From assembly GCA_024232855.1 (NCBI GenBank), contig JAAEPH010000011.1, positions 1 through 47,472 on the forward strand: a stretch of DNA of 47,472 nucleotides. The letters are read 5' to 3'. The DNA is from Gammaproteobacteria bacterium. GTDB taxonomy: Bacteria > Pseudomonadota > Gammaproteobacteria > GCA-001735895. A program made the position numbers and the translations under genes. Shown here piece after piece: positions 18,274 through 28,959 of the stretch. Positions within the stretch are counted from its first letter, which is position 1. Each line of letters begins with the position of its first letter. The notes below the pieces were generated by a model that was not told the origin of the DNA, made no database searches, and was given only the letters and a program-made list of their open reading frames with translations.

Positions 18274-18969
18274 ATGCCCGATTACCAGATAGCGCCCTCG
18301 ATACTGTCAGCTGATTTCGCGCGGCTCGGCGAAGAAGTCGATCATGTCCTCGCGGCCGGTGCCGACATCGTTCATTTCGACGTCATGGACAACCATTACG
18401 TGCCCAACCTGACCATCGGTCCGCTGGTTTGCGAAGCCTTGCGCAAACACGGTGTAGTGGCTCCGATCGACGTGCACCTGATGGTTAAGCCGGTCGATCG
18501 GATCATTCCGGATTTTGCCAGCGCCGGCGCCAGTTACATCACTTTTCATCCCGAGGCCTCCGAGCATATCGATCGCAGCCTGGGCCTGATCCGCGAACAC
18601 GGCTGCCGCGCGGGCCTGGTATTCAACCCGGCGACGCCGCTGTCTTATCTCGACTACGTGCTCGACAAAGTCGATATGATTTTGCTGATGTCGGTCAACC
18701 CCGGTTTTGGCGGGCAGAGCTTTATTCCGGCGACACTCGACAAGTTGCGCGCCGCACGGCGAATTATCGACGAGTCGGGTTACGAAATTCGCATGGAGGT
18801 CGACGGCGGGGTCAAGGACGACAACATCGCCGAAATCGCGGCTGCCGGCGCCGATACCTTTGTTTCCGGTTCCGGCATATTCGGTTGCGCGCGGAATGAC
18901 GATCCGAATCGCTACGACAGTATTTTGCAGCAGATGCGTGCCGAACTGGAGCGGGCCCAATCAATCTGA
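18274..18969 (+). CDS. rpe: ribulose-phosphate 3-epimerase
   Basis: 231 residues. Interconverts ribulose 5-phosphate and xylulose 5-phosphate in the pentose phosphate pathway. Markers: [35 protein letters not shown] with metal-binding His and Asp, [15 protein letters not shown], and [11 protein letters not shown] with the second catalytic Asp. Immediately upstream of the trp leader; in several gammaproteobacteria rpe, gph and trpE are neighbours, but gph is absent here. Confidence 0.97.
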
Positions 18970-19046
18970 AGCCGCAATAAATTAGTCATAGCCTTGCCCG
19001 GAATGCTGTGTTAGATTCTGAATTCTGAACGACAATACGGTTCGAA

Positions 19047-19100
19047 ATGACTCAAAAACGCATACAGAAAATTGAAGGTGTCTCAAGCTGGCGATGGTGA
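19047..19100 (+). CDS. trpL: trp operon leader peptide (MTQKRIQKIEGVSSWRW)
   Basis: A 17-codon frame, ATG 19047 to TGA 19098, with Trp codons at positions 15 and 17 (TGG at 19089 and 19095) directly before the stop. It lies 56 bases before trpE and overlaps the terminator hairpin. The arrangement is that of an attenuation leader peptide: slow decoding of Trp codons reports tryptophan starvation. AATACGG precedes the ATG; the ribosome binding site is weak. Confidence 0.75.
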   Translation: MTQKRIQKIEGVSSWRW

Positions 19101-19130
19101 TCGCGAGCAGCTGTTCACTTTTTTCTTTTT
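19097..19130 (+). terminator. trp attenuator terminator
   Basis: GTGATCGC pairs with GCTGTTCAC (T-T mismatch, one G-U pair, one bulge) around GAGCA, directly followed by TTTTTTCTTTTT. The 5' arm begins at the last base of the second Trp codon and contains the leader stop codon. A competing hairpin, AGCTGGCGAT with ATCGC and CAGCT (19086-19112), shares bases with it. A ribosome stalled at either Trp codon would cover the 5' arm and prevent termination. Confidence 0.65.
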
Positions 19131-19155
19131 CTGTATAGTTTTTTAAGAGTCATTC

Positions 19156-20664
19156 ATGAATCTCAAGCAATTCAATCAAATCAGGCGTGATTACAACCGC
19201 ATTCCGCTGGTTCGCGAAGTTTTTGCTGACCTCGAAACGCCGCTAAGCACCTATCTCAAACTGGCCGATGAGCCTTACACCTATTTATTCGAATCGGTGC
19301 AGGGCGGTGAAAAATGGGGGCGCTACTCGATTATCGGCATGGCCTGTGACACGCGTCTCACGGTGCGGGGAAAACAGGCCCGGATCGAGGTTGGCGGTGA
19401 AATCGTGCGCGAAGAAACCAGCGATGATCCTTTGGCCTTTATCGAGGATTACCTGGCTGGTTTCAAGGTGGCGGAAGCCGATTGCCTGCCCAAGTTTCAC
19501 GGTGGGCTGGTCGGATATTTCGGCTACGACACGATACGCTACATCGAGCCGAAACTCGCACAGTGCCCCAATCCGGATAAACATCAGACTCCCGATATCC
19601 TGTTGATGTTGAGTGACCGGCTGGTGGTGTTCGATAACCTGTCTTCGCGCATGTTTTTGATCGTGCACGTCGAACCTTCGGGTGAGGAAGCCTGGCATCA
19701 CGGCCAGCGCCAGCTCGACGAGCTCGAACAGAAGCTGACCAGCGTGCGTGTCGATACTCGCCGGGATACCTTGAATCACACGGTCAACGAGCAGGATTTC
19801 AACTCCGAGTTCAGCCAGCAGGGGTTCGAGGCGGCGGTGGAAAAGGCGCGCCAGTACATTATCGATGGCGATGCCATGCAGATCGTACTGTCACAACGCC
19901 TTTCGATTCCCTACAAGTCGGCGCCGATCGATCTCTATCGTGCGTTGCGCAGCCTCAACCCGTCTCCGTATCTGTATTACCTCAACCTTGGCGATCATCA
20001 CGTGGTGGGTTCGTCGCCTGAAATTCTGGTGCGGCTCGAAGACGAGACCGTCACGGTGCGGCCGATCGCCGGTACGCGCCCGCGCGGGGGCACCGCCGCG
20101 CGCGATCTCGAACTCGAGCAGGAATTGCTCAATGATCCCAAGGAACTGGCCGAGCACCTGATGCTGATCGATCTCGGGCGCAATGACGCCGGTCGTGTCA
20201 GCCAGGTGGGCAGCGTCAGCCTGACGGAGAAAATGATTGTCGAGCGTTACTCGCACGTGATGCACATCGTCTCCAATGTCGAGGGTCGCATCAGGCCCGA
20301 AATGTCTGCTTTCGACGTGCTGCGCGCGACCTTCCCGGCGGGGACGGTATCGGGGGCGCCGAAGATCAGGGCGATGGAAATTATCGATGAGCTGGAGCCG
20401 GTCAAGCGCGGCATTTATTCCGGCGCCGTGGGCTATATTTCCTGGAGCGGAAACATGGACACCGCGATCGCTATACGCACCGCCGTAATCAAGGATGAGC
20501 AGCTCTATATCCAGGCCGGTGCGGGAATCGTATATGATTCGATTCCACGAAACGAGTGGGCCGAGACCATGAACAAGGGGCGCGCGATCTTTCGCGCCGT
20601 GGCGCTGGCTGAAGCCGGCCTGCCGTCACGCGATCCCTGCGCCGATGATGCGGAGGAGGCGTAG
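19156..20664 (+). CDS. trpE: anthranilate synthase component I
   Basis: 502 residues. Makes anthranilate from chorismate with ammonia supplied by TrpG. N-terminal LLES-like tryptophan-binding segment reads [18 protein letters not shown]. The chorismate-binding domain shows [38 protein letters not shown] and [16 protein letters not shown]. First structural gene of trpE-G-D-C; stop and trpG start are two bases apart. Confidence 0.98.
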
Positions 20665-20666
20665 TC

Positions 20667-21302
20667 ATGAAGATTCTGATGATCGACAACTACGATTCCT
20701 TTACCTATAACCTGGTGCAATATCTCGGTGAGCTGGGGGCAGAGGTTGAGGTAGTGCGCAACGACCAGGTAAGCGTCGATGAAGTCGCCGGCACGGATGC
20801 GAGTCACGTCATGGTATCGCCTGGACCCGGTACTCCGGATCAGGCGGGGGTTTCGATGGTTGCCATCGAGGCGCTGGCCGGAGTCAGGCCGATCCTCGGC
20901 GTTTGCCTTGGGCACCAGAGCATCGGCCAGGTGTATGGCGGCAAAATCAGGCATGCGCGCGAAATCATGCACGGCAAGACTTCCGCGGTCCTGCACAACG
21001 GCGTCGGCGTGTTTGCCGGTATCGATAACCCGTTTACTGCGACGCGCTACCACTCGCTGGTGATCGACAGGAACAGTCTTCCCGACTGTCTCGAAGTCAC
21101 CGCCTGGACCGAGGATGAACAGGGTGAGCTGGATGAAATCATGGGCGTACGTCACCGCTACTTCGCCATCGAAGGCGTGCAATTTCACCCTGAGTCCATC
21201 CTCACCGAAAATGGGCACGCCTTGTTGCAAAACTTTCTTGATCAAAAGAGCGCCAGCCATAGGCTAGCCAGGGGGGATAATGGAAATACAAGCCGCGATT
21301 AA
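20667..21302 (+). CDS. trpG: anthranilate synthase component II, glutamine amidotransferase
   Basis: 211 residues. Class I glutamine amidotransferase that feeds ammonia to TrpE. Catalytic Cys in [11 protein letters not shown], His-Glu in GVQFHPESI, oxyanion loop [11 protein letters not shown]. The GGAGGAGG ahead of the ATG overlaps the end of trpE. Its 3' end overlaps trpD by 23 bases. The same protein may also serve as PabA, as is common when only one copy exists; that cannot be decided here. Confidence 0.97.
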
Positions 21303-22296
21303 ATCGGTAATGGGCCGGCAGGATCTGAGCGTTGACGAGATGGCTTCGGTAATGCAGCAGATCATGACCGGCGAGTGTACGCCTTCACAGATCGGTGGAT
21401 TTCTGGTCGGTTTGCGTATGAAGGGTGAAACCGTGGATGAATTATCGGCCGCGGCGCGGGTCATGCGTGAACTCTCCACGCGCGTCGAGGTGGGCTGCGA
21501 TTACCTTGTGGACACGGCTGGTACGGGAGGGGATTCATCCGGCAGTTTCAACATCTCGACCGCCAGCGCCATCGTCGCCGCCGCCGCCGGCGCGCACGTG
21601 GCCAAGCACGGTAATCGCTCGATGACCAGCAATTCAGGTAGCGCGGACGTACTCGAGGCCGCCGGCGTCAAGCTTGACATCAGCCCCGCGCAGATCGGCG
21701 AATGCATCGAGCAGGTCGGCGTCGGTTTTATGTTTGCCCCGGCGCATCACGGTGCGATGAAACACGCGATCGGACCACGCCGGGAGATGGCGGTACGCAC
21801 CGTGTTCAATGTACTCGGGCCTTTGACCAACCCGGCGGGTGCGCCGAACCAGTTGATCGGAGTGTTCGATGACGAACTGGTCGAGCCCATGGCGCAAGTG
21901 CTGCAACAGCTGGGTAGTCGCCACGTCATGGTGGTGCACGCCGAGGATGGCATGGACGAGGTCAGCATTTCGTCGCCGACCCACGTCGCTGAGCTTAAAA
22001 ATGGCGAGGTCAGCAGCTACACCATTACAGCGGCCGACTTCGGCATGGAAACGGCTTCGCTGGATGAGCTCAGGGTCGATTCGGCTGAGCAAAGCCTCGC
22101 CACGATTGAGGCGGTGCTGGCGGGCCAGGCCGGCGCGGCACGCGATATCGTCTGTCTCAATGCCGGCGCCGCGATCTACGTGTCCGGCTGTGCCGACTCG
22201 CTCGCCTTGGGCATCGAAGCCGCGCGCAACGCGATCAGCAGCGGCAAGGCCGCCACGGCATTGCAGGAGCTGGTTGCCCGAACCAATGCCGAATGA
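21280..22296 (+). CDS. trpD: anthranilate phosphoribosyltransferase
   Basis: 338 residues. Transfers phosphoribose from PRPP to anthranilate. Markers: [36 protein letters not shown] and [19 protein letters not shown] 21280 is preceded by AGGGGGGATA, a strong ribosome binding site lying inside the trpG coding end. Stop overlaps the trpC start as ATGA. Confidence 0.98.
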
Positions 22297-23096
22297 GTAA
22301 TGCGCGACCCGATATTCTGAACCGGATCCTCGCCACCAAGCAGCGCGAAATTGCCGAGCGCCGTAAAGTCCGGTCCATCGAAGATCTGCGGCAACAGGCG
22401 CATCACGTGTCGCCGCCGCGCGGCTTCGTGGCGGCCCTGAAGCGCCGCGTCGAACAGGGTGATGCCGCGGTGATCGCCGAAATCAAGAAGGCGTCCCCGA
22501 GCAAGGGCGTAATCCGCAGAGATTTTGACGCCGTCGAAATAGCAAAATCCTACCAGGCCGGTGGCGCAAGCTGCCTGTCGGTACTAACCGACCTGGAGTA
22601 CTTCCAGGGGCATGAAAGCTATCTCACGGCGGCGCGCGGCGCCTGCAGTCTGCCGGTGATTCGCAAGGATTTTATCGTCGACCCCTACCAGGTAGTGGAA
22701 GCGCGCGCGATCGGCGCCGATTGCATTCTGTTGATCGTTGCCGCCCTCGACGACGATACGCTAGCGACGCTGCACGCCCAGGCGCTGGAGCTGGGGATGG
22801 ATGTGTTGGTCGAGGTGCACGATCGTGCCGAACTCGAGCGGGCTTTACGACTCGACCTCGAGCTGATAGGGATCAACAACCGTAATCTGCGCAGCTTCGA
22901 TACCAGCCTCGATACCACCATCGAACTGCTGTCGCTAGTTGCCGATGGCTGCCTGGTGGTCACCGAAAGTGGCATTCATACACGCGAGGACGTGGTTTTG
23001 ATGCGAGATCACAACGTGCACGCCTTTCTCGTCGGCGAGGCCTTCATGCGCGTCCCCGATCCCGGCCAGGGTCTCAGGAAACTGTTCGCCGATTAG
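22293..23096 (+). CDS. trpC: indole-3-glycerol phosphate synthase
   Basis: 267 residues, monofunctional (no TrpF domain). TIM barrel that closes the indole ring from CdRP. Markers: [16 protein letters not shown] with catalytic Lys, [24 protein letters not shown] and [11 protein letters not shown]. Last gene of the operon here; trpF, trpB and trpA are not in the window. The 135-base spacer to crp has no gene. Confidence 0.98.
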
Positions 23097-28777: not shown

Positions 28778-28959
28778 ATACCAACCACGGTGTCGTCGCA
28801 CTCTATCAACCTTGAACCAAAGGTTCAGGTGGGGTTATTGGCAACTCATCAGGCTTCCTGACGGATCAGGCATGCACACCAGGGTTACACGGAAGTCCCC
28901 GAGATTGATAAATAGGCTCAAGGATTATGATGGCTGCTAACGATCACCGTAGTTGGTAT
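28778..28959 (-). ncRNA. ssrS: 6S RNA
   Basis: 182 nt on the minus strand, directly downstream of zapA as in other gammaproteobacteria. The ends form a 15-bp closing stem: ATACCAACTACGGTG (28959 down to 28945) with CACCGTGGTTGGTAT (28792 down to 28778), all pairs allowed and one G-U. Inside, CCTTGAGCC pairs with GGTTCAAGG. The GTGTGCATGCCTGATCCGTC and GGAAGCC segments and TGCGACGACAC match blocks I recall from enteric and Pseudomonas 6S RNAs. It mimics an open promoter and binds sigma-70 RNA polymerase. A T6 run follows the 3' end on the minus strand. The 28993-29031 stretch is upstream leader only. Confidence 0.9.

Follow-up and report, generated by a model that had tools for sequence, protein, structure and literature searches.

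A trpE leader in a gammaproteobacterium that most likely acts as a leader-peptide attenuator of translation

Attenuation of tryptophan (Trp) synthesis genes is the textbook case of transcription control driven by a ribosome. In translational attenuators of the erm and cat type, a ribosome stalled on a leader open reading frame (ORF) frees the hidden ribosome-binding site of the next gene. A related arrangement is the LEU element of actinobacterial leuA, in which Leu codons of the leader pair with the leuA Shine-Dalgarno sequence and a pseudoknot forms (PMC1262725). The LEU element is the nearest published idea that we found. Another report (PMC4833913) mentions, with credit to earlier work, a variant of attenuation overlapping the ribosome-binding site, and attenuation of trpE and trpGDC has been published for Pseudomonas putida (Olekhnovich and Gussin 2001, as cited in PMC8297930).

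We analysed a stretch of 47,472 nucleotides (the window; positions 1 to 47,472 of the forward strand of contig JAAEPH010000011.1, assembly GCA_024232855.1) from a member of the Gammaproteobacteria, in which a short Trp-codon leader precedes trpE. A preliminary description had read this leader as a compact attenuator whose Trp codons abut a terminator. We find that it is most likely a leader-peptide attenuator acting on translation. The leader has no match in Rfam even at E 10, RF00513 (Trp_leader) included, while the E. coli control (L206) matches RF00513 with 93.1 bits; the Rfam models of the T-box and of known riboswitches likewise give no match at the leader. We recognised no description of the window's trpE leader in the open-licence literature, a weak negative that covers open-licence papers only.

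The leader in the window and in other genomes

The host genome assembly comprises 4.15 Mb in 546 contigs, and the gene order at the locus is rpe, leader, trpE, trpG, trpD, trpC and then a Crp-family gene on the opposite strand. Downstream of rpe (18274-18969) and of the leader, the plus strand carries the regulated gene trpE (19156-20664, with Anth_synt_I_N and Chorismate_bind domains), trpG (20667-21302, GATase domain), trpD (21280-22296, Glycos_transf_3 domains) and trpC (22293-23096, IGPS domain), with trpG and trpD named by gene order. The likely Shine-Dalgarno sequence of trpE is AAGAG at 19145-19149 on the same strand, 6 nt 5' of the ATG at 19156. Elsewhere in the window, a 6S RNA (RF00013, 86.3 bits) lies on the minus strand at 28778-28958.

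The leader ORF, MTQKRIQKIEGVSSWRW, occupies 19047-19100 of the plus strand and has 17 codons and a TGA stop (M-T-Q-K-R-I-Q-K-I-E-G-V-S-S-W-R-W-stop; ATG at 19047, TGA at 19098-19100). Its proposed regulatory codons TGG-CGA-TGG (Trp-Arg-Trp, or WRW) lie at 19089-19097, with the Trp codons at 19089-19091 and 19095-19097 and CGA ahead of the second, so that the Trp-Arg-Trp-stop ending given in the preliminary description is confirmed. In the window's family, TrpE was found at E 1e-100 in 37 of 41 genomes, of which 36 were examined (G039 was left out), and 32 leaders with at least 126 nt upstream were used after the exclusion of L007, L023, L027 and L028 for contig ends or partial matches. A genome search at the level of the order with 90% completeness gave 28 genomes, all of them in this family. 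The layout is the same in all 32 usable leaders, which end in WRW (29), WRWW (2) or WRRW (1), and WRW in the leader frame is therefore conserved among relatives in 31 of 32. The Arg codon following the first Trp is CGA in every one of them and stands immediately 5' of TGG in 31, the exception being L036 with CGA-AGG-TGG.

Measured from the start, the first Trp codon comes after 42 nt in 30 of the family leaders (one with a GTG start) and after 39 nt in the other 2, and the stop codons vary (TGA in 22, TAA in 8, TAG in 2). This combination of varied stops and fixed 42-nt spacing indicates that the leader is translated. By eye, no Shine-Dalgarno sequence can be made out ahead of the leader ATG, either in the window (19030-19046) or in many relatives, and initiation at the leader could therefore be poor. 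With trpEGDC downstream, the leader resembles an attenuator of trpE that works through a Trp leader peptide. TrpR was not matched in any of the 41 genomes of the family, some of which are incomplete, while the E. coli and B. subtilis controls were detected, and the leader attenuator may thus be the main Trp control.

Upstream of the leader, TG at 19009-19010, a T and TAGATT at 19012-19017 (plus strand) form a possible extended -10 element, and transcription may start about 20-25 nt upstream of the leader ATG. Many relatives carry the stretch TGTG.TAGATTC between -147 and -168 relative to trpE, and it is perhaps because it holds the -10 region of a promoter that it is kept some 150 nt upstream of trpE in the window and most close relatives. 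A sigma-70 scan found no promoter-like site. In some relatives (L018-L020, L022, L025, L026 and L031-L033) the gene preceding trpE carries gph-like motifs (YGYNHG, DAVIDS), which are not seen at 18970-19046 of the window or in its close relatives.

Beyond the family, an evenly drawn set of 377 genomes of the class was searched, and 299 of these have TrpE at E 1e-100. We compared 85 regions from 40 other families, 25 of them L041-L065 and 60 (L146-L205) chosen by hand from the top of the TrpE list, a choice that left out some, such as those with a stop inside the frame; since they were taken from the nearest TrpEs, the 85 are not a random sample. The hexamer CGATGG occurs within 160 nt of trpE in 57 of these regions, representing 31 of the 40 families (6.5% in a Markov control; the next hexamer occurs in 37). 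In 50 of the 57 it reads as in-frame Arg(CGA)-Trp within a short ORF that begins with ATG and reaches a stop within 12 codons; the other two frames qualify in 2 and 0. The AUG within CGATGG was also considered as the start of another short ORF and rejected, as that frame is open in 2 of 57 compared with 50 of 57 for Arg-Trp. Among the 50 leaders selected by CGATGG, with the farthest ATG within 22 codons taken as the start, 22 have one Trp codon.

A count that does not depend on CGA, in which every in-frame TGG of short ATG ORFs at -45 to -105 of trpE was taken from the 85 regions, gives the preceding codon as CGA 51 times, TGG 12, CGC 5 and CGT 5, and never CGG, AGA or AGG; the Markov expectation for CGA before TGG is 0.3. 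In 80 named loci, CGATGG is found near the trpE start in 33 (3 from the window's family), including Marinobacter (3/3), Microbulbifer (4/4) and records titled Betaproteobacteria (2/2). It was not found in the Pseudomonas (0/25) or Methylomonas (0/2) loci, and in all 25 Pseudomonas loci an Arg-Trp-Arg-Trp stretch with other Arg codons stands ahead of trpE. The 28 regions without CGATGG include some with CGC or CGT before Trp (L052, L055, L153, L155, L167, L184), of which we would not call L184 a leader, and others in which gph is close to trpE and no leader is seen (e.g. L050, L057, L058).

Several further observations concern individual leaders. One family (f35; L055, L155, L167) has leaders with a single Trp codon and CGT replacing CGA before it, that of L055 being, by eye, MVITDGQKLRKLQTNTRW followed by a stop. 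Repeats resembling ACGCAAAGACGCAAAGGCGC, with their complement, are seen between gph and trpE in L042, and the leader hairpin of L175 has arms made of similar repeats, as though a repeat element had been their source (both by eye). In L048, L063, L064, L170 and L183 the leader frame runs 26-37 codons from CGA to the stop, reaching or passing the trpE start, which would allow translational coupling. In the window's own genome, TGGCGATGGTRA occurs at 5 sites including this leader, and the reversed control pattern at 2; as further leaders the four other sites were rejected and judged to be chance, three ending frames open for 33-64 codons and one (L210) lying one codon after a stop.

Pairing of the leader with the trpE start

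Positions 19040-19155 fold into a single long hairpin spanning 19046-19154 (-42.6 kcal/mol, z -5.83), and none of 200 shuffles folds as well. On the plus strand its 5' arm is 19046-19080 (segments 19046-19059, 19062-19071 and 19074-19080) and its 3' arm 19116-19154 (19116-19122, 19127-19136, 19138-19143 and 19147-19154). The segment 19046-19059 pairs with 19138-19143 and 19147-19154, 19062-19071 with 19127-19136, and 19074-19080 with 19116-19122. The competing hairpin that the preliminary description placed at 19086-19112 is recovered at 19087-19108 of the plus strand (-13.6 kcal/mol) as the head of this larger hairpin, with the Trp codons inside it; 99.2% of its cells are paired in 16 close leaders. 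We also agree that the E. coli set of hairpins has no room here. In the predicted fold, the leader start and first codons pair with bases just 5' of trpE, over its ribosome-binding region, the likely Shine-Dalgarno sequence lying partly within and partly beside the 3' arm. Positions -16 to -1 of trpE pair with the leader start region in the folds of 31 of the 32 family leaders (9-16 of the 16 bases; L025 is the exception), all folds being of the RNA alone and leaving aside proteins and co-transcriptional timing. A conserved stem joining the leader start region and the trpE ribosome-binding region points to translational control.

Among the 17 closest leaders, 16 were compared (L021 excluded): of their 400 cells 98.3% are paired, a share that falls to 40-50% once the partners are slid; no pair is changed on both sides and shuffles are no worse, so that these leaders are too alike for proof and covariation rests on the wider comparisons. 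In a second genus, 6 of 7 leaders (L035 excluded) have 6 pairs changed on both sides against 2.9 in shuffles, with 4 of 500 shuffles as high, the pair structure being derived from the same alignment in which the changes were counted. RNAalifold gave no structure for all 32 family leaders, in our view probably because that alignment mixes clades with shifted arms, and clade-level alignments were used in its place.

Arms were also exchanged between leaders. In three clades (n = 17, 7 and 7) pairing with the own arm has means of -28.3, -26.8 and -23.1 kcal/mol, compared with -19.0, -15.2 and -14.4 kcal/mol for arms of other clades, and the single leader of a third genus has -33.8 against -16.5 kcal/mol. 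The own arm is better than every arm from another clade in 23 of 32 family leaders. For the 57 leaders of 31 other families, own arms average -26.7 kcal/mol and swaps between families -19.6 kcal/mol, with none of 20,000 permutations as low; the own arm ranks first or second among the partners for only 16 of these 57. Own arms no better than many swapped ones occur in both sets (e.g. L047, L192, L195 and L196 among the 57; L038, L034 and L029 in the clade swaps). The wider comparisons indicate that the pairing over trpE is conserved by compensating change, which is not seen within the closest 16.

From the computed folds and comparisons, we consider it probable that the long hairpin and the leader together form a ribosome-controlled translational attenuator of trpE. 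The control could also work at both levels, the fold repressing trpE translation and the untranslated message then being shortened by Rho or degraded. Untranslated message is commonly a Rho substrate, which speaks for this extension, but we regard it as unlikely.

Unlikely, too, is a classical transcription attenuator, in which a hairpin at 19097-19119 followed by the T tract terminates unless a ribosome stalled at Trp covers its arm. A leader peptide with two Trp codons ahead of trpE is what such a system would have, and 11 of the 12 bases at 19119-19130 are T, but the T-rich stretch is explained as the pairing partner of A-rich leader codons. The proposed terminator (19097-19130, plus strand) folds at -5.7 kcal/mol (z -0.73), with 49 of 200 shuffles equal or better, and loses out to the competing hairpin. 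Neither a consensus terminator scan of 18800-19400 nor a relaxed scan of the window found a terminator, and the relaxed scan did detect the E. coli trp terminator used as a control. Terminator-like sites, mostly with poor T tracts, appear in the relaxed scan in 9 of 32 family leaders and 9 of 57 leaders of other families; the site in L031 has eight T, but L037 has at most 3 T within any 8 bases. Among the 16 close leaders, the window included, the second of the four pairs of the GTGA/TCAC stem is present in 2 and the third in 9, and 65.6% of the cells of the proposed stem pair, against 41-80% with the partners slid. On the grounds of folding, the two scans and these pair counts we rejected the terminator as the main reading. 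Of the preliminary description, the Trp leader-peptide attenuator and its conserved frame stand, whereas the terminator arm abutting the Trp codons, a weak hairpin whose central pairs are broken in relatives, and the idea that a stalled ribosome acts by covering that arm do not.

Ribosome occupancy and the CGA codon

To open positions -16 to +3 of trpE, with a ribosome footprint assumed to be 30 nt, a mean of 13.6 kcal/mol is computed for the free RNA of the 32 family leaders, 11.1 with a ribosome stalled with the first Trp codon in the A site, 12.7 at the second Trp and 13.3 at the stop. The cost falls to 5.5 kcal/mol with a stalled and a queued ribosome, 5.1 with a ribosome at the leader ATG and 5.7 with the 5' arm blocked. 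The 57 leaders of other families behave similarly (12.8 kcal/mol for the free RNA, 10.2 with a stall, 11.9 at the stop, 5.7 with a stalled and a queued ribosome and 5.5 with the arm blocked), and a gain of at least 3 kcal/mol is reached by the stall alone in 25 of them and by stall plus queue in 45. In the model of the window, a single ribosome at the first Trp, the second Trp or the stop leaves the outer stem closed; the stem opens when a stalled ribosome is joined by a queued one, or when a ribosome occupies the leader ATG. Folding with ribosome-covered bases thus predicts that one stalled ribosome is insufficient to free trpE, whereas a stalled ribosome with another behind it would suffice. 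Since a single stalled ribosome is not enough at equilibrium, the simple model fails and a queue must be assumed; the 42-nt spacing has room for a stalled ribosome and one behind it, which makes a chain of stall and queue likely.

From these computed energies we infer the following order of events. In the closed state, as folding and comparison indicate, the leader start region and first codons are paired with the bases before trpE, and the trpE initiation site is shut. When Trp is sufficient, ribosomes would clear WRW and exit at the stop, and the hairpin would reclose over the leader start and the trpE start. When Trp-tRNA is short, a ribosome would stall on the Trp codons in the hairpin head, breaking the inner stem, and a second ribosome would load on the exposed leader start or queue. 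Together they would cover the 5' arm completely and leave the trpE site free. That the switch would be on when Trp is short is expected from the pathway. The slow CGA codon before Trp probably sharpens the sensitivity of the Trp step.

In trpE of L041-L065, 4.5% of the Arg codons are CGA; elsewhere in the same leaders CGA accounts for 12 of 85 Arg codons, and in ten window genes its share is 6.9%. Base pairing was considered as the cause of its conservation and rejected: of the 57 leaders of other families, 32 have the wobble A unpaired or mixed, and the distance to its partner varies, so that no shared base pair explains CGA. In the window's family, where this A is paired in 29 of 32 leaders, pairing may add to the conservation. 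In yeast CGA pairs, decoding of the following codon is disturbed when inosine faces adenine in the P site. Decoding of Arg codons has been assayed in a his leader in Salmonella. In that bacterial assay, CGA seemed to be translated significantly more slowly than CGU and CGC (PMC4046918). CGA may serve as a slow step before Trp. Pseudomonas, judged by its codons, shows that CGA is not required everywhere.

We tentatively propose, as a possibility that falls short of an even chance, that many non-enteric Gammaproteobacteria and some Betaproteobacteria carry an old translational attenuator of trpE that senses CGA-UGG. In it, an Arg codon that is poorly decoded would, from the P site, render a single Trp codon unusually sensitive to Trp-tRNA, so that one such codon suffices, and a queue of two ribosomes, not one stalled ribosome, would open the hairpin closing the leader and trpE. 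If true, the conservation of CGA-UGG, even where the leader has a single Trp codon, would be a natural example of selection for a slow codon in an amino-acid sensor. The hairpin as a constitutive damper or stability element, with a leader ORF that is no Trp sensor, is very improbable. A strong structure would by itself reduce trpE translation, but the in-frame Trp codons are conserved, the stops vary and the length is fixed, ahead of a Trp-synthesis gene and in many families.

Comparison with known systems

The translational attenuator that we favour shares with E. coli trpL (RF00513) a short Trp-codon leader peptide before trpE and a ribosome whose position would decide the RNA fold. The E. 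coli terminator (L206) has eight T, whereas in the window no terminator is supported and the stem extends to the initiation site of trpE. Attenuation of trpE outside the enterics is also a point of likeness to Pseudomonas, with Arg-Trp-Arg-Trp ahead of trpE in the 25 loci, but these lack CGATGG and those inspected carry CGC or CGT before Trp. In Pseudomonas and Stutzerimonas leaders ending ARWRWRA-stop (L099, L108, L111, L112, L139), a separate small CCTC..GAGG hairpin seems, by eye, to lie on the trpE Shine-Dalgarno sequence, which suggests translational control by another layout.

The LEU element is alike in that a leader peptide containing codons for the amino acid made by the pathway is combined with pairing between the leader and the Shine-Dalgarno sequence of the structural gene; it differs in that the Leu codons themselves pair, whereas in the trpE leader it is the start region that does so, the Trp codons being placed in the hairpin head, and it belongs to another phylum and another gene (PMC1262725). 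Systems of the erm and cat type sense an antibiotic on the ribosome, whereas the trpE leader would sense Trp-tRNA. The trpE leader also differs from them in that the leader hides the trpE site with its own start region, and the closed state would therefore shut the leader too. While Trp attenuation is known as control of transcription, many non-enteric relatives seem to direct a sensor of this kind at translation, by means of a hairpin that would also close its own leader start.
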